DNA of 64,000 nucleotides from positions 1 to 64,000 of the forward strand of contig JANYLK010000071.1 of assembly GCA_025357875.1 (NCBI GenBank), given 5' to 3'. The stretch comes from Granulicella sp. (GTDB lineage: Bacteria; Acidobacteriota; Terriglobia; Terriglobales; Acidobacteriaceae). Of the stretch, positions 53,531-64,000 are shown in pieces; positions within the stretch are counted from its first letter, which is position 1; each line of letters starts with the position of its first letter. A model generated the notes under the pieces. That model made no database searches. It was not told where the DNA came from and saw nothing but the letters and a program-made list of their open reading frames with translations. The translations under genes were made by a program, and so were the position numbers.

Positions 53531-53725
53531 ATGAACAAAGCATCGCAGATTATTTTGTGGTCCGCGGCAGTTCTGCTGGTGGCTGTACCGCTTCATGCGC
53601 AGACTGGCTGCACCGATTCTCCTGAGAATCCTACGGTTGTGCTCGCACTTGTGGGTTCGGCGGGCGCTCTATTTTCTACATTTCGCTCGCGGCTAAAAGC
53701 TCGCCGGAAAATCTCCGGCCGCTAG
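53531..53725 (+). CDS. PExPT-CTERM-type small surface protein
   Basis: 64 residues. A signal peptide ends near PLHAQ, and the mature part is almost only the sorting signal SPENPTVVLALVGSAGALFS plus basic RSRLKARRK. This matches the PExPT-CTERM variant of exosortase targeting, known mainly from Acidobacteriota. With so little mature sequence it may be a linker or a carrier for the anchor. GAGG lies about 9 bases upstream. The first NHL lipoprotein gene begins 81 bases downstream. Confidence 0.75.
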   Translation: MNKASQIILWSAAVLLVAVPLHAQTGCTDSPENPTVVLALVGSAGALFSTFRSRLKARRKISGR

Positions 53726-53806
53726 CTTCCACGCACGGGTGCTATCGTGGCAAATCGAGGTTCGGAGCCGGGTCCCCAGCACGGCCGCTGCACCAACCTG
53801 ACCCCC

Positions 53807-55669
53807 ATGCGTCTTCCAGTTCTCAATTTGCTCAACGCCGCCGCCACCATCTCGGTGGCGAGTTTGTTGATAGTAGGAACAAGCGGATGCGGCAGCCTAA
53901 TCTCCGATGTGCGCGTGCCACTCGCTAGTTATTCTGGAAACGGATTTAATGGGAGGGCGATGGCAGGGAAGCAGCCTGTCATCGGGGCGTCGGTGCAGTT
54001 GTATGCGGCAGGCACCGGCGGCAACGGTTCAGCCGCTACTTCACTTCTCACCAGCGGGCTGACGACGGATGCGAATGGAGTGTTTACTGTTCCGGCTGGC
54101 TATACCTGTCCGCTCTCTTCGTCGCAGGTCTACGTGGTGGCGCGAGGGGGCAAGCCGGGGCTGGCGGCTGCCTCCGCAAATGACGCCTTAGTCTTGCTGA
54201 CAGTCATGGGGGATTGCAATCACGTTGCGGCTGCCAGCCAGATCGTGGTGAACGAGGTGACGACGGTTGCAGCGACGTACGCGCTGTCGCAGTTCCTTTC
54301 GGCGGGCGGCAATCTCGGCGCGAGTTCCACTAACCTGCTTGGCTTGCAAACAGCGGTTGCTACTGCTTCCGCGCTGGCTGATGTTGTAGCGGGTAGCAGT
54401 CCGGGCCTGACGTTTGCGGCGAATGGAAGTTCACCGGCGGCGAAGATTGATTCGGTTGCGAACCTGCTGAACGCCTGCGCGACGTCGACTCCAAGTGGAA
54501 GGGCTTGCGGAATGCTGTTCGCTGCGACCACGCCGATTGGAAGCAGTTCACCGGCCAATACATTGGACGCGGCTCTAAATCTGGTTCGCAATCCGGCGAC
54601 GAAGGTCGCGCCGCTTTATGCGTTGTCTTTGAGTAGCTCCGCGTTTGTGCCGGTGCTGGCTGCAGCGCCCTCTGATTGGACATTGTTTGTCACGTACACG
54701 GGTGGCGGGATGAGCTCGCCATCGCGGCTCGGCATCGATAGTCTGGGCGATGTGTGGGTGGCGAACTATTTCAATGTAGCGTCGCTGTTTTCGCCACTGG
54801 GCAAGCCGTTCTTGCCGCAGGGAATCAGAGGATTCGGACTGAGCGCGTCCTACGGGCTTGCGGTGGACGCAAACGATAATGCTTGGATTCCCAATGAGCC
54901 AAGCACTGGCGTTCGAGGCAATAGTGTAAGCGTTTTAACCGCGACCGGACAATCGGCTGCAGGAAGTGGAGGGTTCACGGCGGGCGGACTGGACTATCCG
55001 ACCGGCGTCGCGATCGACACGGATACGACGGTGTGGGTCGTTGATTATGGGAACTCTCATCTTACCCACCTCTCGAGTTCGGGTCAGGCGCTGTCGGGCG
55101 CATCGGGATATACGTCCCCCTTATTTGCGTTTCCTGTATTCGCCGCAATTGATGCAAGTCATAAGGTGTGGGTTGCGAACCAGAGCGGCTCGAGTGTGAC
55201 CAAGGTGGCCCCGGACGGCTCGCAATTCACCGATTACGCCTGCTGCAATGGCCCGTCGACATTGGCGATTGACCGGCTTGGGAACGTGTGGGTGGCGAAT
55301 TATTACGGCGACAGCATCAGCGAGATCTCCAGCGCGGGTGTGGTTCTGTCGAACGGATCGTATACGGGTGGGGGTCTCAACCATCCGCAGGGAATCGCTA
55401 TCGACGGCGCGGGAAATGTGTGGGTAACGAACTTCCGGAGTGTATCGATTACTGAATTGGCGGGTGCGGGCGCTAGTGTTCCGGGAGCGGCTCTGTCGCC
55501 GCCGGGTGGATTGGGCGCAGACGCGGGGCTGCTGGAGGCGTACTCGATCGCGGTGGATGCGAGTGGCAATCTGTGGATCAGCAACTTTGGCAGCAGTACG
55601 CTGACGCAGTTTGTCGGCCTGGCTGCGCCGGTGCGGACTCCGCTGCTGGTCCTTCCGGTCGAGCCCTGA
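53807..55669 (+). CDS. NHL-repeat lipoprotein, copy 1
   Basis: 620 residues. The lipobox is GTSGC with C28. A beta-sandwich domain follows (KQPVIGASVQLYAAGTGGNG), then an alpha-helical middle with VNEVTTVAATYALSQFL. The C-terminal half is an NHL beta-propeller with repeats such as IDSLGDVWVANYFN, IDRLGNVWVANYYGDSISEI and VDASGNLWISNFGSSTLTQF. The end is GLAAPVRTPLLVLPVEP. Probably an outer-surface binding protein. Two paralogues follow at 59552 and 61441. ATG 53807 starts the lipoprotein signal and is preferred over the open frame from 53747. Confidence 0.85.
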   Translation: MRLPVLNLLNAAATISVASLLIVGTSGCGSLISDVRVPLASYSGNGFNGRAMAGKQPVIGASVQLYAAGTGGNGSAATSLLTSGLTTDANGVFTVPAGYTCPLSSSQVYVVARGGKPGLAAASANDALVLLTVMGDCNHVAAASQIVVNEVTTVAATYALSQFLSAGGNLGASSTNLLGLQTAVATASALADVVAGSSPGLTFAANGSSPAAKIDSVANLLNACATSTPSGRACGMLFAATTPIGSSSPANTLDAALNLVRNPATKVAPLYALSLSSSAFVPVLAAAPSDWTLFVTYTGGGMSSPSRLGIDSLGDVWVANYFNVASLFSPLGKPFLPQGIRGFGLSASYGLAVDANDNAWIPNEPSTGVRGNSVSVLTATGQSAAGSGGFTAGGLDYPTGVAIDTDTTVWVVDYGNSHLTHLSSSGQALSGASGYTSPLFAFPVFAAIDASHKVWVANQSGSSVTKVAPDGSQFTDYACCNGPSTLAIDRLGNVWVANYYGDSISEISSAGVVLSNGSYTGGGLNHPQGIAIDGAGNVWVTNFRSVSITELAGAGASVPGAALSPPGGLGADAGLLEAYSIAVDASGNLWISNFGSSTLTQFVGLAAPVRTPLLVLPVEP

Positions 55670-55895
55670 GCGTGTCCCGCGCGCGCATGGTGTTGATGTT
55701 GGAATAAAAGGTTGCTTCTGGTGTAAACTTTCCCGGTGGGGCTGAACGATCCGCGCGCATTCGCGGGATTTCCTTGGTTTACTCAGTGTGCAAGCGGACC
55801 TGTGCGTCTCTCCCTTGCTTGGTTTGATCTGGCTCAAGAAGCTGTTGCAGGTCCGCTGTACGCGCACGTCCAATCTAAAAGTTGCTGGTAGTTTT

Positions 55896-58800
55896 ATGAT
55901 CCGCTCTGCCACGCGTGGGCGCAGTCCCCAGTTGTTTTCCGCCGGGGGCAATGCACGCGTCGATTTATGTCTTGCGATAGCGACACGGGGTGGGTGCCGG
56001 TGGACTTTTGCCGTGTTGGGTGTCCTGTTCGCGGCTACGCTGAGCGGTGCGGCTGCGGCGCAGACACCCGAGCCGACAGTTCGCGCGGAGTTTCGCACGG
56101 TGCAGCGGCGGGTGGTGACGCAGGTCGTCGATCGCAGCCGCATGGTGCGCGCGGAGGTGGCCATGCCACGGGAGTTAGCGACCGCTCAGGATCTTGGCGC
56201 ACGCGATCCGTCGGCGGCGATGGAGAAGATTCAGTTGGTGCTGCAGCGGCCGCAGGAGCGGCAAGCGGCCTTCGATGCCGAAGTTGCGGCGTTGCATCAG
56301 CGCGGCAATCTCAGCTATCACAGATGGCTTACGCCGGAGATGGTGGGAGCGGAATTTGGTCCATCACCCTCGGACATCGGGGCGCTTACCACCTACCTTC
56401 AGTCGGAAGGATTCACGGTGAATGCGGTTGGCAAAAGCGGGATGTTCGTTGAATTTTCGGGAACTGTTGCGCAGGTTGAGCAGAGCTTCCATCCGGAAAT
56501 CCACACGGTGCGACTGACGACAGGAGAGGTGCATTACGCGGCGGTCGGCGAAGCGCAGCTTCCTGAAGCGATTGCACCCCTGGTCGCGGGATTTCTCTCG
56601 CTGAGCGATATCCCTTCGATCCATCCACAGCTGCGCAAGTCGGTCCCGGTGTCAGCCCGTGCGTTGGGGGTTAATCCTCTGGACACGGTGAGTTTGACGA
56701 ACTATGCGGTTGGACCTCAGGACTTCTACACCATCTATAACGAGAACCCCCTCTTGACAGCTACGACGCCGATCGATGGCAGAGGCGTAACGATTGCCTT
56801 GCTAGAGGAGAGTGCTATCACCACCGGGGATGTTGCGTTCTTTCGCGGGCTTTTCGGCGTAAATCCTGCCACGCCCGTATCGCTGGTAACGGACACTGGT
56901 TTTGGCGGCAACTGTGCGGCTCCTGCGAAGCTAAAGGCGAATGGGGAAGAGGGCGAGGCAGTTCTGGATATTGAATGGGCAGGTGCGGTGGCTCCCGGCG
57001 CGAACCTGCTCTTCATGCAGTGCGCATCGACCGGCAGCACGGCAGGAATCTTTCTTTCGGCCGAGGCGGTAATCGATAATAACCTCGCTGACATCATGAG
57101 CTTGAGTTACGGCGACTACGAAGGGCAGTCTCCGACTCAAGACACTCTGGTCAACAACCTGTGGGAGCAGGCGGCGTCCCAAGGCCAGACTGTCGTGGTC
57201 TCTTCTGGGGACAACGGCGCTGCCACGGAGGACGCAATCTTTGGGAGGAATGTCGCGAGCTCAGGCATCACATCGAATTCCTTCTCGACGACTGCGTGGA
57301 ATGTCTCTGCCGGCGGCACAGATTTTCAGGATACGTATAACCAGAATCAGGGCGACACAGCCTTCGGCATCAGCACCTTTTGGAACAGCACCAACACGCC
57401 TTCTCTGGGTTCTGCGAAGAGTTACGTTCCAGAAATGACGTGGAACGATACCTGCGCCAGTAGTATCTATAACGCTGCCAAGGAGGGATCCTCCGCAGAC
57501 GGAGCTACCTTGTGCGGAGCGACCCTAACCGCCAACCTATATATGGTCGCCGGGGGTGGAGGGCCGAGCAAGCTGCACCCGCGGCCTTCCTGGCAGACGG
57601 GAACTGTGTTTGGTTTGCCCACGCTTGCGGCTTATCCGAATCGGCTGCAGCCGGACGTATCGCTGTTCGCCGCAAACGGCTTCTGGAACCACGATCTGCC
57701 GGCGTACCAGTCGGACCAAGCAACGCCAATCTCCTACGCGGGAGGAACATCCTTTGTCGCTCCACAACTTGCGGGCCTGTTTGCCCTGATTCAGCAAAGG
57801 ACCGGTGAGCGGCTCGGCCAGCCCAACTACGTGCTATACAGCATGGCGGGACAGGCGTTCGGCGTTGGCAGCTTTACCGGGGCTGCGTGCAATGGGAGTG
57901 GAGCGTCGGGAATCGGCACGACGAGTTCATCGCCGGCTTCGAGCTGTATTTTTTACGATGTTCAGACCGGCAATATTTCGGTCGATTGCGTGGCAGGTAC
58001 GCCGAATTGTTACACGCTGTCAGGGAAATCCTACGGGATCCTGTCGACCAGTAATACTGTGGAATCGCCGGCGTTTCCGACGAACCAAGGATGGGACCAG
58101 GCGACGGGCATCGGTTCGGTCAACATCACCAACCTGGTGAACAACTGGCAGAATGCGGCTGCGGGAGGCGTCCTTTACACGCCGACGGTTGCAGTGACGG
58201 CGACGTCGGCTTCATACATCTACGGATTACCCTCGGCGATCACATACACGGCGACCGTGTCGGGACCGGGAAGCTATCCGACGGGGTCAGTGACTTTCTC
58301 CGGTACGCCGACGATTTTGACGATCGGAAATGCTCCGCTGAAGGGAAGTGCTGGTTGCTCGACTGGCTCGACGTGCACCGAGTTCGCGACGCAGGCATTT
58401 ACTGCTGCAGGGACGCTGGCCGCGGGGAGCTATACGATCACCGGAGCGTACTTGAGTACCAATGAGAATTATGCGAGCAGCTCGGGCACTACAGCGCTTA
58501 CTGTGACGGCTCAAACTCCTACCGTGACGGTGACGGCCGTGAGCATTGGAGTCGGAGTTGCCACGGCCAACTTGTCGGCGCGGATTGCTTATGCCGGGAC
58601 CGGAAATGCACCTGCGGGCGGCCTTACTTTTCGGGTCGATTCGGGCGTGACGGTTACGGCGACCTGCTCAGGCTCGTCGAGTCCGCTGACCTGTACGTAC
58701 ACCGGCTACGACACTTCGGGGCTTGCTTCTGGATCGCATACCATCACCGCCACTACGATTGCCGACGTGAATTACGCGGTAGCGACGGGGACAAATACAC

Positions 58801-59555
58801 TGATGATAATGCCGCTGCCTACGATTGTGTTCAGCGTGCCAAACCATCACACGCAAGATTCGGCGTTCACGGTGACAGCGACGTCGAACTCCTCCGGTGC
58901 GATTACTTACTCGGTTATAAGTGGGCCAGCGACGATTGCCGGCAACACCGTAACGCTGACTGGCGTGGCCGGCACGGTAACGCTGCAGGCCTCGCAGGCG
59001 GCGAGCGGGAGCTTTCCGGCCGGAACGCAGAATACGGGTTTCCTGGCCATCGCAGGAAGCGTGTGGCTGGGCAACGGGACGGGTAGCCTCAGTAGCTTCG
59101 ATTTGACTGGTCTCGCGATCACCGGTGCAGGCGGTTATACGGGTGGAGGCGTGGGGACAATTGCCAGTGCACTTGGGTTGGCTTTCGATTCTTCGGGCAA
59201 TGTGTGGGTTGCGAGTAGCAACGGCGTCAGCGAGTTTAGCCGGCAGGGAATCGCCGTCATCTCGACGCCCTTCACCGTTGGCGGAATCAACAAGCCGCTT
59301 GCAATCGCCGTGGACGGCGCCGGTAAGGTGTGGGTTGCCAACCTGGCGGGAACGGTGAGTGTGCTGAGCAACAGCGGCGTGGCGGTGTCGCCATCGACCG
59401 GCTACTCCGGCCCTGGCAGCAAGCCCGCCGGCATTGCAATCGACATCTCTGGCAGCGTCTGGATTCCAAGCAGCACCGCGAACACTGTGACCAGGATTCT
59501 GGGCGCGGCGGCGCCGGTCGTTCCACTTGCCAGCGGAACAGGAGTGAAGCCATGA
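55896..59555 (+). CDS. Sedolisin (S53) protease with Ig-like and NHL domains
   Basis: 1219 residues from ATG 55896. A signal peptide ends near GAAAAQ. A pro-kumamolisin activation domain (about 60-230) has SYHRWLTPEMVGAEFGPS. The catalytic domain shows E354 and D358 in EGEAVLDIEW, D439 in SSGDNGA and S619 in AGGTSFVAPQL, the complete sedolisin set. Then come bacterial Ig-like repeats (YGLPSAITYTATVSGPGSYP, TPTVTVTAVSIGVG) and an NHL propeller (FDSSGNVWVASSNGVSEF) that ends in GAAAPVVPLASGTGVKP, like the lipoproteins nearby. It overlaps the next gene by 4 bases (ATGA). Confidence 0.88.
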   Translation: MIRSATRGRSPQLFSAGGNARVDLCLAIATRGGCRWTFAVLGVLFAATLSGAAAAQTPEPTVRAEFRTVQRRVVTQVVDRSRMVRAEVAMPRELATAQDLGARDPSAAMEKIQLVLQRPQERQAAFDAEVAALHQRGNLSYHRWLTPEMVGAEFGPSPSDIGALTTYLQSEGFTVNAVGKSGMFVEFSGTVAQVEQSFHPEIHTVRLTTGEVHYAAVGEAQLPEAIAPLVAGFLSLSDIPSIHPQLRKSVPVSARALGVNPLDTVSLTNYAVGPQDFYTIYNENPLLTATTPIDGRGVTIALLEESAITTGDVAFFRGLFGVNPATPVSLVTDTGFGGNCAAPAKLKANGEEGEAVLDIEWAGAVAPGANLLFMQCASTGSTAGIFLSAEAVIDNNLADIMSLSYGDYEGQSPTQDTLVNNLWEQAASQGQTVVVSSGDNGAATEDAIFGRNVASSGITSNSFSTTAWNVSAGGTDFQDTYNQNQGDTAFGISTFWNSTNTPSLGSAKSYVPEMTWNDTCASSIYNAAKEGSSADGATLCGATLTANLYMVAGGGGPSKLHPRPSWQTGTVFGLPTLAAYPNRLQPDVSLFAANGFWNHDLPAYQSDQATPISYAGGTSFVAPQLAGLFALIQQRTGERLGQPNYVLYSMAGQAFGVGSFTGAACNGSGASGIGTTSSSPASSCIFYDVQTGNISVDCVAGTPNCYTLSGKSYGILSTSNTVESPAFPTNQGWDQATGIGSVNITNLVNNWQNAAAGGVLYTPTVAVTATSASYIYGLPSAITYTATVSGPGSYPTGSVTFSGTPTILTIGNAPLKGSAGCSTGSTCTEFATQAFTAAGTLAAGSYTITGAYLSTNENYASSSGTTALTVTAQTPTVTVTAVSIGVGVATANLSARIAYAGTGNAPAGGLTFRVDSGVTVTATCSGSSSPLTCTYTGYDTSGLASGSHTITATTIADVNYAVATGTNTLMIMPLPTIVFSVPNHHTQDSAFTVTATSNSSGAITYSVISGPATIAGNTVTLTGVAGTVTLQASQAASGSFPAGTQNTGFLAIAGSVWLGNGTGSLSSFDLTGLAITGAGGYTGGGVGTIASALGLAFDSSGNVWVASSNGVSEFSRQGIAVISTPFTVGGINKPLAIAVDGAGKVWVANLAGTVSVLSNSGVAVSPSTGYSGPGSKPAGIAIDISGSVWIPSSTANTVTRILGAAAPVVPLASGTGVKP

Positions 59556-60886
59556 GGAATTTACGACAGCTGAATTTTATTCTGGTTACCTATGCGGCGC
59601 TGGCGATGGCTGTCTTGACTGGTTGCGGGACGGGCGTGATCTTCGACGCTGTGAAACCTGCCGCGACGCCCGCTACGGCTTCCCTCCAGGGAGTCGTCAT
59701 GGGCGGGCAGCAGCCGGTCGCGGGCGTAACCGTCCAACTTTACCAGGCGGGCACGACAGGATATGGTTCGGCGGCGACTCCACTGGGACCTACGGTGAAG
59801 ACCAACGCGGGTGGGAATTTTAATCTGCCGAGTTACACTTGCGCTCCAGGCTCGCAGGTATATCTGGTGGGCACAGGCGGTATGCCCACATCCTTGCTAA
59901 CGAATAACAACCTGGCCATGATGTCAGGCCTAGGTACATGCGGCGGAACTTACCTCTCCAGCTTTATCAACGTGAACGAACTCACGACCGTGGCGACGGC
60001 GTGGGCGCTTGCACCATTCATGACGGGAATTGCGAACATCGGAAGCAGTTCGACGAATGCTGCCGGACTCACGGACGCGTTTGCGGCAATCAATCAGATT
60101 GTGACAACCGCGAATGGGACCCTACCTGGTCCTACGCTGCCTGCGGGCGCAACATTGCCGCTCGCTGAGATCAATACACTGGGGGAGATACTGCTGCAGT
60201 GTGTCAATTCTGGTGGCGGCACGGCGGGCGATCCGAGCTTATGCGGCAAGCTCTTCAACCTCGCCCCTAATGCAGCGGGGACGGTGTTTCCAACGGACAC
60301 GATTACTGCGGCTATGAATATTGCGCAGTCACCGCAGAGAAACATTGCGGCCATCAACTCGCTGCGCACCGGTACGCCGCAGTTCGTGCCGGTGCTGGAT
60401 GTGAACTCTCCGCCAAATGACTGGACGATCGCGATCACGTATACGGGTGGCGGCCTGAACGCGCCGACCTCGATTGCGGCAGATGCAGCGGGCGCAGTTT
60501 GGGTGACGAACGGCGGTAATGCTAGCGTGACCAAGCTGGACAAAACGGGCGCTGCGGTCTCGGGTGTGAATGGATTCACTGCGGGTGGCTTCAGCGCTCC
60601 TTCGGCGGTCGCTATCGACGTCAGCGGCAATGCGTGGGTTGCGAACTCTGGCAACAACACTGTGACCGAATTGAATGCAACTGGCACGACCGGCACCGTG
60701 TACCACGGCAATGGCCTTAGCTCGCCGGCGAGCATTGCGATCGATGGCTCGGGCAACGTGTGGGTGAGCAATGGCGGATCTAACGCAGTCAGCGCATTCA
60801 CCAGCAGCGGCGGTGTTTTGGCTGGCTCGCCTTACACCGGTGCGGGGTCTACTGCACCCGTCAGCATCGCGATCACGGCGAAGTAG
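59552..60886 (+). CDS. NHL-repeat lipoprotein, copy 2
   Basis: 444 residues. Lipobox LTGC with C25, beta-sandwich GGQQPVAGVTVQLYQAGTTG, middle VNELTTVATAWALAPF, then NHL repeats (VDVSGNAWVANSGNNTVTEL-like) ending in TAPVSIAITAK. It is shorter than copies 1 and 3 and lacks the TPLL tail. The start ATG 59552 overlaps the sedolisin stop as ATGA and has AGGAG upstream, so translation is coupled to the protease. Confidence 0.87.
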   Translation: MRNLRQLNFILVTYAALAMAVLTGCGTGVIFDAVKPAATPATASLQGVVMGGQQPVAGVTVQLYQAGTTGYGSAATPLGPTVKTNAGGNFNLPSYTCAPGSQVYLVGTGGMPTSLLTNNNLAMMSGLGTCGGTYLSSFINVNELTTVATAWALAPFMTGIANIGSSSTNAAGLTDAFAAINQIVTTANGTLPGPTLPAGATLPLAEINTLGEILLQCVNSGGGTAGDPSLCGKLFNLAPNAAGTVFPTDTITAAMNIAQSPQRNIAAINSLRTGTPQFVPVLDVNSPPNDWTIAITYTGGGLNAPTSIAADAAGAVWVTNGGNASVTKLDKTGAAVSGVNGFTAGGFSAPSAVAIDVSGNAWVANSGNNTVTELNATGTTGTVYHGNGLSSPASIAIDGSGNVWVSNGGSNAVSAFTSSGGVLAGSPYTGAGSTAPVSIAITAK

Positions 60887-60917
60887 CCGGAACGAATCTG
60901 AGGAAAGGAGAATGTCC

Positions 60918-61418
60918 ATGAGCAGTACCGAAGCAACTTACAGCGTACGGCAAGACTTCTCCATCCAGCAGATTGGTACGGAGACCTTGGTGTATGACGC
61001 GCGGCGGCACACAGCTTATTGCCTGAATGAGAGCTCGTCGACCATCTGGAATCTCGCAGACGGCGAGCGTACGATTGCTGAGTTAGCTGCGGCCGCATCG
61101 CTTCAGCTGGGCCTTGAGGTCAGCGAAGAATTTGTGCAGTTTGCTCTGGCGCAGTTGTGCGAAGACGGCTTGGTGGAAGCGTCCACTTCAGTTGCCGAGG
61201 TGCGGCCTACAATTTCGCGGCGTGCGATGCTGCAAAGGCTTGGGGTAGGTGGTGCGCTGCTGCTGCCTGCGATTGCTGCGATCGTTGCACCAACCGCGGC
61301 TCAGGCATACAACGGATGCTTCGACTGCACCACACCTTCGCCGAGCCGGGCGGCCAGAAGACAACAGTTCAGCCGAACGCGGACGGGAAGCACTCCCTTA
61401 AGCACGCCGCAGAAGTAG
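60918..61418 (+). CDS. PqqD-family protein fused to a twin-arginine-like signal and Cys tail
   Basis: 166 residues. Residues about 10-90 are a PqqD-like domain (ETLVYDARRHTAYCLNESSS, STIWNLADGERTIAEL, EEFVQFALAQLCEDGLVEA), a fold that binds leader peptides in RiPP pathways. Next is ISRRAMLQRL with R101-R102, a hydrophobic stretch to about 124 and TAAQA at 126-130, like a Tat signal with a signal-peptidase site. The tail YNGCFDCTTPSPSRAARRQQ has two Cys and is basic. This internal order is strange for an exported protein. ATG 60918 has GGAG 7 bases upstream, while ATG 60912 abuts it. It begins 31 bases after the copy 2 stop. Confidence 0.82.
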   Translation: MSSTEATYSVRQDFSIQQIGTETLVYDARRHTAYCLNESSSTIWNLADGERTIAELAAAASLQLGLEVSEEFVQFALAQLCEDGLVEASTSVAEVRPTISRRAMLQRLGVGGALLLPAIAAIVAPTAAQAYNGCFDCTTPSPSRAARRQQFSRTRTGSTPLSTPQK

Positions 61419-61440
61419 CAGGTCCGAAGTTGCGAATCGT

Positions 61441-63324
61441 ATGAGAGAGACCGTGTTCATTGCGCGCCGAACCTCCCTGAGAAAAGATGTACGGTTGCGC
61501 GCGCTCATGATGAGCGCTGGGATGATGTTGGGGATGGTGTGGCTGTCGGGCTGCGGTATATCGCGTGACCCTGTGTCGACGAGCGAGCGCGAAATCGCAC
61601 TTGAAGGCCGGGTGCAAGGCGGGCAGCAGCCAGTGAGTGGAGCGTCGATTTACTTGTACGCTGCGGGCTTTGCGGGCGCTGGTGCAAAAGCGACCGATCT
61701 ACTTGCGCCGCACATCGTGCTGACGGATTCCTTCGGAAATTTCAGTATTACCGGCGACTATGTATGTCCCGCTGCAACCACCCAGATTTACATTGTCGCG
61801 CGGGGCGGCAATCCGGGGCTCACTTCTGGAGCGAATAATCCCGCGCTGACGATGATGGCTGCACTTGGAAACTGCGGAGATCTGACAAGTTCGACGAACA
61901 TCGTGGTCAATGAGGTAGCGACCGTCAGCTCGGTGTGGGCGTTATCGCAGTTCATGAGCCCCGGTGCAATCGTTGGATCGACGGCCACGAATGTCCTTGG
62001 GCTCAAGAATGCTTTTGCGACGGCAAACAATCTCGTCGACACGAGCAGGGGATTAACTCCAGGCGCCGCGTTGCCTGCTGGTGCGGTAATTGAATCGGCG
62101 AAGCTCTACACGTTGGCGGATGTGCTTGCGGCGTGCGTCAACTCCGATGGAGGCTCGGCCTGCACGCCCCTGTTTGCCGCCGCAACCACAGCGCAGGGCG
62201 TCCCAATGAACACGCTCGATGCGGCGCTGAACATTGTGCGGCACCCGGGGAACAATGTGTTGGCTGTGTTTAATGCGAGCCCTGCGCAGGGACCGTTTCA
62301 GCCGACGCTCAGCACGGTGCCCAACGATTGGACGATGTCGGTGACGTATGGAGGATGTACGCCGGCATGTGGAGGCCTGAACTTTCCGGGGTCGATTGCG
62401 ATCGATTCCGAAGGCAATGTTCTAGTTGCGAACCACTCCGCCGGAGTGCTGTCGAAGTTTTTGCCAACCGGCATACCTGCTGTGGCGGCAGGCATCGCCG
62501 GGGTTGGGCTGCGTGCCTCGTACGGGATCGCAATCGACGGTTTCGACAATGTGTGGGTTACAAATACGCAAAGCGTGACCGCGGCCAACAATCACCATAA
62601 CGGAAGCGTCAGCGAGTTTTCTTCGACTGGCATCGAACTCTCCGGCAACGGTTATACAGCTGGAGGCGTCTTCTTTCCTTTGGCGGTCGCGGCTGATTCT
62701 ACGGGGGCGATCTGGATCGCGGACTATGGAAGCTCGTCGGCGAGTTTGTTGGCTAGTGACGGGACTGCGATCTCCGGAGGCAGCGGCTACGCAAACTCGG
62801 CGCTTCCCTTCACCTCCGCGGTTGCGGTGGATGCGAGTCACAATGCATGGTTCGCCGTGCAGGGCGCGGCGGTGCGTGTTACGCCAACAGGCGTGTTCAG
62901 CAGCTTCCCGTGTTGCGACGGGCCGGCTGGAATTGCGATCGATCTTGCAGGAGATGTGTGGATTGCGGACTATGGCGCTTCGGCTGTAGTGGAGCTTGCG
63001 CCGACGGGGATGGTGTCGTATCGGACCACCGTACTCGGCGGAAATGGCGGGCCGCAAGGCATTGCGATCGACGGGGTCGGAAATGTCTGGGCGGGGAATT
63101 ACCTGGGTAATTCGCTGGTTGAACTCGGTGGCTCGTCTGCGGCGGTCATTTCACCTTCGCAGGGGTATGGTCTTGATGCGCGACTCAGCGAGCCGTATGG
63201 ATTGGGAATTGATGCGGGCGGCAACGTCTGGATTGCGAACGCAGGCAGCAATACTCTCACTCAATTTGTAGGGCTTGCGAGTCCGATCAAGACGCCGCTG
63301 CTCGGGCCGCCGGTGCAGCCATGA
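61441..63324 (+). CDS. NHL-repeat lipoprotein, copy 3
   Basis: 627 residues. Lipobox LSGC with C38, beta-sandwich GGQQPVSGASIYLYAAGFAG, middle VNEVATVSSVWALSQF, then NHL repeats including IDGVGNVWAGNYLGNSLVEL and IDAGGNVWIANAGSNTLTQF. The end is GLASPIKTPLLGPPVQP, almost the same as copy 1, so copies 1 and 3 are close paralogues. It begins 22 bases after the PqqD stop, and its own stop overlaps the kinase start as ATGA. Confidence 0.86.
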   Translation: MRETVFIARRTSLRKDVRLRALMMSAGMMLGMVWLSGCGISRDPVSTSEREIALEGRVQGGQQPVSGASIYLYAAGFAGAGAKATDLLAPHIVLTDSFGNFSITGDYVCPAATTQIYIVARGGNPGLTSGANNPALTMMAALGNCGDLTSSTNIVVNEVATVSSVWALSQFMSPGAIVGSTATNVLGLKNAFATANNLVDTSRGLTPGAALPAGAVIESAKLYTLADVLAACVNSDGGSACTPLFAAATTAQGVPMNTLDAALNIVRHPGNNVLAVFNASPAQGPFQPTLSTVPNDWTMSVTYGGCTPACGGLNFPGSIAIDSEGNVLVANHSAGVLSKFLPTGIPAVAAGIAGVGLRASYGIAIDGFDNVWVTNTQSVTAANNHHNGSVSEFSSTGIELSGNGYTAGGVFFPLAVAADSTGAIWIADYGSSSASLLASDGTAISGGSGYANSALPFTSAVAVDASHNAWFAVQGAAVRVTPTGVFSSFPCCDGPAGIAIDLAGDVWIADYGASAVVELAPTGMVSYRTTVLGGNGGPQGIAIDGVGNVWAGNYLGNSLVELGGSSAAVISPSQGYGLDARLSEPYGLGIDAGGNVWIANAGSNTLTQFVGLASPIKTPLLGPPVQP

Positions 63325-64000
63325 CCCGAAACCCGCGCTCGCTCAACTGCATTTCGTTTGGAGTTTCATTTCAACTCATGGCCGACTCCGACGTGCTGCT
63401 GACAGCGATGCAGAAATTTATGCCTGTGGGTACGCAGGTCAGCACAGTGACCTCCAGGGACGCACGAAACTTTACTCTGCGGTGTATGCGCGGCGATGCT
63501 GGGTATCGGCTTGATGTTGATGGTGACGTGGTTGTTGAAGGCAGTACTCTGCAACCCATCCTCGACAAGCTCTCATGCGACTTGATCGTCCATGTTGCTA
63601 ATTTTGCGCCTGATCTTCTGTTCGTACATGCGGGCGTAGTTGGGTGGCAAGGGCAGGCGTTGCTTCTTCCCGGCGCAAGCTTTGCCGGTAAGACGACGCT
63701 GGTTGCGGAGTTGGTGCGCGCAGGCGCGACGTACTATTCAGATGAGTACGCTGTGCTCGATGAGTGTGGGCACGTTCATCCCTATGCCCGCGACTTGCAG
63801 ATGCGCGAACATCGTGGGGCGACGCAAAGTTCTGTTGGAGTCGCCCTGCTTGGTGGCGCGGAAGGAACCGAGCCTCTTGCGGTGTCACGTGTTGTGTTTA
63901 CGGAGTTTGTCGAGTCTGGACATTGGAATCCGGAGCCGGTATCGGCAGGATTGGCTGTGCTCGAGATGCTACAACATTCGATTCCGGTGCAGCGCACGCC
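63321..64000 (+). CDS. HPr-kinase-like protein, cut by the window end
   Basis: 226 residues are visible from ATG 63321, which overlaps the stop of NHL copy 3 (ATGA). Walker A is GASFAGKTTL at 118-127, followed by YYSDEYAVLDECGHVHPYAR, the acid-rich block typical of HPr kinase homologues. The sequence lacks an obvious HPr partner in this window. HprK-like proteins with PqqD-type partners occur in natural-product and peptide-modification cassettes, where some phosphorylate Ser or Thr of a peptide. Here a PqqD fusion lies two genes upstream. The full end and neighbours beyond 64,000 are not visible. Confidence 0.85.
   Translation, partial: MTRNPRSLNCISFGVSFQLMADSDVLLTAMQKFMPVGTQVSTVTSRDARNFTLRCMRGDAGYRLDVDGDVVVEGSTLQPILDKLSCDLIVHVANFAPDLLFVHAGVVGWQGQALLLPGASFAGKTTLVAELVRAGATYYSDEYAVLDECGHVHPYARDLQMREHRGATQSSVGVALLGGAEGTEPLAVSRVVFTEFVESGHWNPEPVSAGLAVLEMLQHSIPVQRT

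Follow-up and report, generated by a model that had tools for sequence, protein, structure and literature searches.

A PqqD fusion of Granulicella as a candidate one-piece precursor of an exported peptide, linked to an HprK-like kinase and a nucleotidyltransferase

We analyzed a 64,000-nucleotide stretch of DNA from Granulicella sp. (assembly GCA_025357875.1, contig JANYLK010000071.1, positions 1 to 64000; here called the window) with respect to a gene on the + strand, at 60912-61418, whose product carries a PqqD domain. According to the explanation that we favor, with a probability of roughly two in three, this PqqD fusion is a one-piece precursor: its PqqD domain, a recognition element for ribosomally synthesized and post-translationally modified peptides (RiPP recognition element, RRE), would serve as a leader in cis for an exported core, predicted to be modified by an HprK-like kinase and a nucleotidyltransferase of the NTP_transf_5 family. 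The original prediction had placed the gene in an exported-peptide modification cassette joined to NHL lipoproteins and a sedolisin. The pairing of the fusion with the kinase recurs in relatives and is tied also to NTP_transf_5, whereas the lipoproteins and the sedolisin are not general partners.

The fusion protein is 168 residues long. Its RRE domain (residues 25-88; 60984-61175, +) is followed by a linker, by a predicted twin-arginine-type signal (61215-61307, +) composed of SRRAMLQRLG, a hydrophobic stretch and an A-x-A site within APTAAQA, and by a predicted exported core of 36 residues (61308-61415, +), which starts YNGCFDCTTPS and contains one CxxC pair. The purine-rich sequence AGGAAAGGAG lies immediately 5' of the ATG. 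The PqqD domain scored 27 bits against Pfam PF05402 (cut-off, 23.4), and the best solved match of the RRE profile was LppB (9x8z; E value of 8e-5). AlphaFold run on four sequences gave a low-confidence model (mean predicted local distance difference test score of 53), with TbiB1 as the best Foldseek match (E value of 0.03; none below 0.001), which mildly backs an RRE fold.

Of 300 genomes in the window's family, 11 had matches to the single window protein. A profile (A2) matched 83 of 396 genomes in a sample of the phylum, 33 of 399 in a sample of the class and 44 of the 300 family genomes, these matches including signal-less PqqD proteins. The full-length fusion, counted from listings, was present in 42 phylum-sample genomes and in 21 family genomes. 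The fusion system is widespread but patchy and recurs in many families of Acidobacteriota. It also reaches a second phylum: on a 1.1-Mb plasmid of Gemmatirosa kalamazoonensis (Gemmatimonadota; NZ_CP007129.1, 1032830-1049321), an HprK-like protein (216 bits) accompanies a fusion with a six-cysteine tail, and an NTP_transf_5 protein (143 bits) is encoded on the opposite strand; the plasmid record is unannotated. A first scan of genome contigs with the window protein returned 484 pattern stretches and no relatives, and a scan of viral contigs with a knottin-bearing relative returned 12 stretches and no relatives.

For comparison, 86 regions were fetched, some genomes contributing more than one. 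The profile matched 95 open reading frames (ORFs) in these regions; 87 passed a full-length rule and one of them, L112, which has no RR and a low-complexity tail, was removed by hand. The resulting 86 full-length fusions lie in 79 of the regions. Split or partial profile matches of the phylum and class searches lie mostly outside the fetched regions, and the tail counts given below exclude L166 to L170, G149 and G178. One further locus, L030 (9234-9739, +), appears to hold a frame-split fusion, in which the PqqD part stops early and a cystine-knot-like tail continues in another frame.

In the alignment, the relatives share the domain order of the window protein but have very different tails. 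A PqqD match was observed in all 86 fusions, and so was the RR pair, an invariance that is partly built in. The longer motif [STN]RRx## was found in 79 of 86. An AxA site was present in 66, and in 79 when relaxed to (AVSTG)xA. TatC is encoded in the window genome. Given that its own chain includes a twin-arginine (Tat)-type signal and a core that varies, the PqqD protein most likely represents the precursor itself, and not only the recognizer of another peptide.

We then compared the tails. Their cysteine counts are distributed as follows: none in 22, one in 2, two in 6, six in 33, seven in 1, eight in 16, ten in 5 and twelve in 1. The number is even in 55 of the 56 tails with at least four cysteines, and cysteine makes up 12.1% of the tails versus 1.6% of the leaders. 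A cystine-knot pattern with adjacent CC, searched with a loose regular expression, fits 19 of 86 tails, versus a mean of 2.3 and a maximum of 9 in 2,000 rounds of shuffling; the strict form C6C5CC3C fits 9, versus 0.013 expected from shuffling. Venom-type cystine-knot Pfam families match a few fusions, and one of three scanned singly scored above the gathering threshold. The window tail, with its one CxxC pair, is outside the cystine-knot pattern, and proline and basic residues are abundant in several of the tails that lack cysteine pairs. Over 334 pairs, mean identity was 0.58 for leaders and 0.34 for cores, against a shuffled-core baseline of 0.19. In every one of the 8 within-region pairs, and in 94 to 100% of the pairs of each identity band, the core was less similar than the leader. 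At L083 (1677-3763, -) we observed three tandem fusions with very different cysteine-rich cores; neither a kinase nor a nucleotidyltransferase is present in the fetched region, which starts at a contig end.

The gene for the HprK-like protein, a predicted peptide kinase, starts at 63321 (+), runs to the window end at 64000 and ends at contig position 64130. The contig is 66,825 bases long, so that 2,825 bases remain beyond the window. There, a third ATGA overlap joins the end of the kinase gene to a 619-residue ORF (64127-65986) with an NTP_transf_5 domain (PF14907, 153 bits). The original prediction had suggested looking past 64,000 for an asparagine synthetase-like or transglutaminase-like maturation gene; neither was found among the ten proteins encoded from 50242 to the contig end, and the NTP_transf_5 gene stands there instead. 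The window kinase had no Pfam match and, by phmmer, no match in the PDB; against the NCBIfam model HprK_rel_A it scored 49.4 bits (cut-off, 200). In 65 aligned kinases, the motif reported for BsfK is kept as follows: H in 65, G in 57, G in 65, K in 65, S/T in 65, D in 65 and E/D in 63, most having Glu at the position of the second Asp of BsfK. The R and DxD of the nucleotidyltransferases were present in 59 of 59.

Within 3 kb of the 86 fusions, an HprK-like gene was found in 65 cases, an NTP_transf_5 gene in 59, both in 50 and either in 74. When non-overlapping ORFs of at least 100 residues within 4 kb of 79 loci were clustered by BLAST, the kinase recurred in 52 loci and the nucleotidyltransferase in 51. 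The next most frequent clusters reach 20 of 79 (glycosyltransferases, then a TsaD-family protein, a beta-propeller protein and a GNAT acetyltransferase). Clusters recurring in at least 3 loci were labeled by our own profiles, by Pfam on 15 representatives, or left unlabeled. Moreover, kinase and fusion are associated among the 300 family genomes (Fisher p of 8e-26, uncorrected for kinship): a search with the window kinase was positive in 21, the full-length fusion is present in 21, and 19 have both. The unmatched genomes are G149 and G178 (fusion only), G241 (kinase only) and G014 (kinase and a frame-split fusion). None of the 22 family genomes with a PqqD match but no full-length fusion has the kinase, one of them (G024) giving a weak match with three stops. 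Taken with the intact motifs, this linkage suggests that the kinase and the nucleotidyltransferase probably modify the peptide.

A possible phosphorylation site is a Ser or Thr near the core start. Ser/Thr directly precedes the first cysteine in 40 of 56 tails, versus 13.5 expected; for cysteines two to six, the corresponding counts are 6 to 15 of 56. Among tails of at least 12 residues, 83 of 85 have Ser/Thr within positions 1 to 5 after the predicted cut, versus 67% of 58 other AxA signal proteins taken from the same regions by a simple rule (64% when restricted to the 11 that have RR). At core position 2, the proportions are 64% of fusions and 19% of comparison proteins. This position test used rule-derived boundaries, which shifted 20, and omits one fusion with a 2-residue tail; for the cysteine statistics, the L070 boundary was set by hand. 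Among 11 cysteine-poor fusions chosen by hand, the rule used puts Ser at position 5 in 10; in the remaining one, Ser takes that position if the cut is placed one residue later. Known kinases act at comparable places: BsfK, aided by its RRE, phosphorylates core Ser3 (PMC10368454), and LppK likewise phosphorylates Ser3 (PMC13381572), while other lasso kinases target a C-terminal Ser (PMC10368454).

What the sequences show is the domain order, the RR pair, the variable core, the cysteine parity and the linkage to both enzymes; how and where the core is modified, how it is exported and what it does biologically are inferences. The RRE domain would act in cis as a folded leader, ahead of the twin-arginine-type signal, the signal-peptidase site and the short variable core. 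The HprK-like kinase would dock on the tethered RRE and phosphorylate a Ser/Thr near the core start, and the NTP_transf_5 protein may then add a nucleotidyl or sugar group or otherwise elaborate the phosphate. The modified core would cross the membrane, most likely by Tat, and be cut after AxA, releasing a disulfide-bonded, proline-rich or CxxC peptide. Tat export and the housekeeping signal peptidase would thus replace a dedicated peptidase and exporter, and tethering would make leader recognition unnecessary, with which the absence of [YW]xxPx[LVIAFY] from all 86 leaders is consistent.

Several points weigh against this explanation. The invariance of RR reflects in part a profile derived from RR-bearing sequences and the dropping of partial matches, and the fusion sequences are related, so that the statistics are not independent draws. 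A signal placed after about 93 aligned residues is unusual. The NCBIfam Tat signal model matches only 2 of 86 fusions, and the formate-dehydrogenase Tat-target model 4 (E value of at most 0.01). Tat moves folded proteins, and disulfides mostly form outside; Sec may be an alternative export route. The missing RRE-binding motif also counts here; it appears in 4 fusions if 40 upstream residues and the core are included. Neither enzyme is encoded within 3 kb of 12 of the 86 fusions, some of which lie near contig ends. Of the two tails that lack Ser/Thr at positions 1 to 5, one is that of the window (YNGCFDCT), whose first Ser/Thr is Thr8; it has Asn at position 2, where the two orthologues have Ser or Thr (YSGC and YTGC).

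An unlikely alternative is that an uncut signal holds the PqqD domain at the membrane as an anchored chaperone, which presents other peptides to the HprK-like kinase and NTP_transf_5 protein while the tail is incidental. An internal hydrophobic segment can serve as an anchor, no signal peptidase was recognized among the recurrent neighbors, and discrete RREs work in trans (PMC7470986). An incidental tail would fit poorly with the bimodal, almost always even cysteine counts and the 19 cystine-knot matches, or with the several regions in which two or three fusions have similar leaders and differing tails; and no leader contains the motif by which an RRE binds. It is more improbable still that an envelope polysaccharide, or its export, is what the two enzymes act on, with the exported peptide as a structural or regulatory part. 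Across 54 loci compared out to 7 kb, Polysacc_synt_2, Glycos_transf_4/1 and Epimerase_2 genes were each found near about 20, and clusters of the linear polyphosphorylated peptide (LPP) family are also found in capsule loci (PMC13381572). Nevertheless, the glycosyltransferase clusters reach only 20 of the 79 loci at 4 kb, far fewer than the kinase and the nucleotidyltransferase, and kinases of the HprK-like type are known peptide kinases (PMC10368454).

Least probable of all is that the fusion, the kinase, the NHL lipoproteins and the sedolisin act as one unit on a common exported target, as the original prediction had proposed from the tight gene run. The run itself was confirmed by ORF and domain calls, with its + strand ORFs, coordinates and ATGA overlaps (59552 and 63321). 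The sedolisin gene, at 55788 (or 55896)-59555, encodes a Pro-kuma_activ domain and a tail with Ig-like and NHL domains. One NHL lipoprotein gene (59552-60886) precedes the fusion and another (61441-63324) separates it from the kinase gene, with gaps of 25 and 22 bases flanking the fusion. A paralogue at 53747-55669 (+), identified by domain call, lies upstream of the sedolisin gene. The order NHL-PqqD-NHL-HprK-NTP_transf_5 is kept in three genomes of two genera; the sedolisin slot differs, being occupied by a TIG/NHL protein in the two closest relatives. As a general rule the unit is contradicted. The NHL lipoprotein N-terminal domain was found in 3 of 86 regions, namely, the window, G264 (same genus) and G188 (Granulicella paludicola), so that only two relatives have lipoproteins at equivalent positions. 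The catalytic part of the sedolisin was found in 2 of 86, the other being L029, where the gene converges toward the kinase from the opposite side; conservation of the sedolisin does not follow that of the cassette. Additional NHL paralogues are encoded on other contigs of the window genome, and strong NHL homologues occur in 6 other genomes of 150, none of them among the 44 PqqD-positive genomes. Most relatives have the fusion and the kinase without the lipoproteins. A general NHL or sedolisin partnership was rejected on these region counts and the NHL genome search, and the link is clade-specific, since the lipoproteins and the sedolisin occur in so few regions. A loose tie of the cassette to surface lipoproteins within the window's family is possible, because some other family cassettes adjoin Ig-domain lipoproteins.

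Further observations concern the surroundings of the loci. At L158, L160 and L161, the cores lack cysteine and contain His/Lys, and the cassettes are flanked by large lipoproteins that fall into a single BLAST cluster; the L161 lipoprotein has Ig-like ASH/DUF1573 domains. A secreted C25 peptidase is encoded near 4 of 79 loci, at L070 (5018-9388, -) beside two fusion genes and, in the same BLAST cluster, near L066, L067 and L085. Just 5' of the first NHL lipoprotein gene of the window lies a gene for a 64-residue PExPT-CTERM protein (53531-53722, +), matching TIGR04200 (targ_of_XrtJ) at 93 bits (cut-off, 40). The NTP_transf_5 domain beyond the window shares a single frame with cytochrome b561 (L002:14128-15987, equivalent to contig 64127-65986), and a molybdopterin-oxidoreductase fragment follows up to the contig end. 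Cytochrome b561 and molybdopterin domains were found in none of the 85 other regions compared and were set aside.

If the favored explanation of a one-piece precursor is true, equipping the precursor with its own RRE and an export signal would be modular in a simple way: any peptide behind the leader would be modified and secreted. Genomes of soil bacteria could then be mined for many small secreted peptides, cystine-knot-like scaffolds of bacterial origin would have a natural source, and the roles of HprK-like kinases and of the uncharacterized NTP_transf_5 family could be tested. More tentatively, and with the balance tipped slightly against it, the fusions may form a separate ribosomal-peptide class, in which the RRE-Tat leader would let one kinase and one nucleotidyltransferase act on any core. 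As such a leader would need no recognition motif, evolution could swap cores freely; the outcome, in Acidobacteriota and Gemmatimonadota, would be bacterial knottins and proline-rich peptides that are phosphorylated or nucleotidylated.

The nearest characterized system is the LPP family of RiPPs from Bacillota (Popov et al. 2026, PMC13381572). LPP clusters combine, as here, an RRE, an HprK-like kinase and an NTP transferase with variable C-terminal cores and no macrolactam cyclase, and their frequent position in capsule loci is a further likeness. LPP RREs and precursors are separate and joined via a YxxP motif, whereas here RRE, signal and core form one chain; a [YW]xxP-like motif was sought in the leaders and rejected (0 of 86). 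LPP systems, in which the RRE is required for leader cleavage, use a dedicated SpI-like peptidase and an MsbA-like exporter (PMC13381572); here, neither was recognized among the partly labeled recurrent neighbors. Unlike in LPP, some cores here are cystine-knot-like.

Phosphorylated lasso peptides (Bsf of Bradymonas and the paeninodin type) share an HprK-like kinase, a predicted nucleotidyltransferase and an RRE, and in the Bsf system the separate RRE strongly stimulates phosphorylation of core Ser3 (PMC10368454). Bsf, however, has a separate precursor, a B2 peptidase, a macrolactam cyclase and an ABC exporter (PMC10368454), none of which was recognized here among the recurrent neighbors. A lasso cluster was rejected for the window, as no macrolactam cyclase or B2 was found among the 10 proteins from 50242 to the nearby contig end or recognized among recurrent neighbors elsewhere. 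The window proteins match the HPr-rel-A system weakly, and membership was rejected: the kinase reached 49.4 bits (cut-off, 200) against TIGR04352 and the PqqD protein 19.8 bits (cut-off, 35) against TIGR04353. The latter model matches 30 of 86 fusions (E value of at most 0.01), but its 74 positions span neither the signal nor the core.

RREs have been described as discrete proteins or as parts of enzymes (PMC7470986). In the open PubMed Central literature we found no account in which an RRE and its own precursor, or an RRE and a Tat signal, are joined, which is weak as evidence of absence, and nothing linking HprK with PqqD and a nucleotidyltransferase; papers on knottins and PqqD were off-topic by their titles and the start of their abstracts. 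Finally, the cysteine spacing of 19 of 86 tails and a few Pfam matches resemble, by sequence, inhibitor cystine knot mini-proteins. The window tail is not of this type, and the fusion tails differ from these mini-proteins in being bacterial and borne on an RRE leader.

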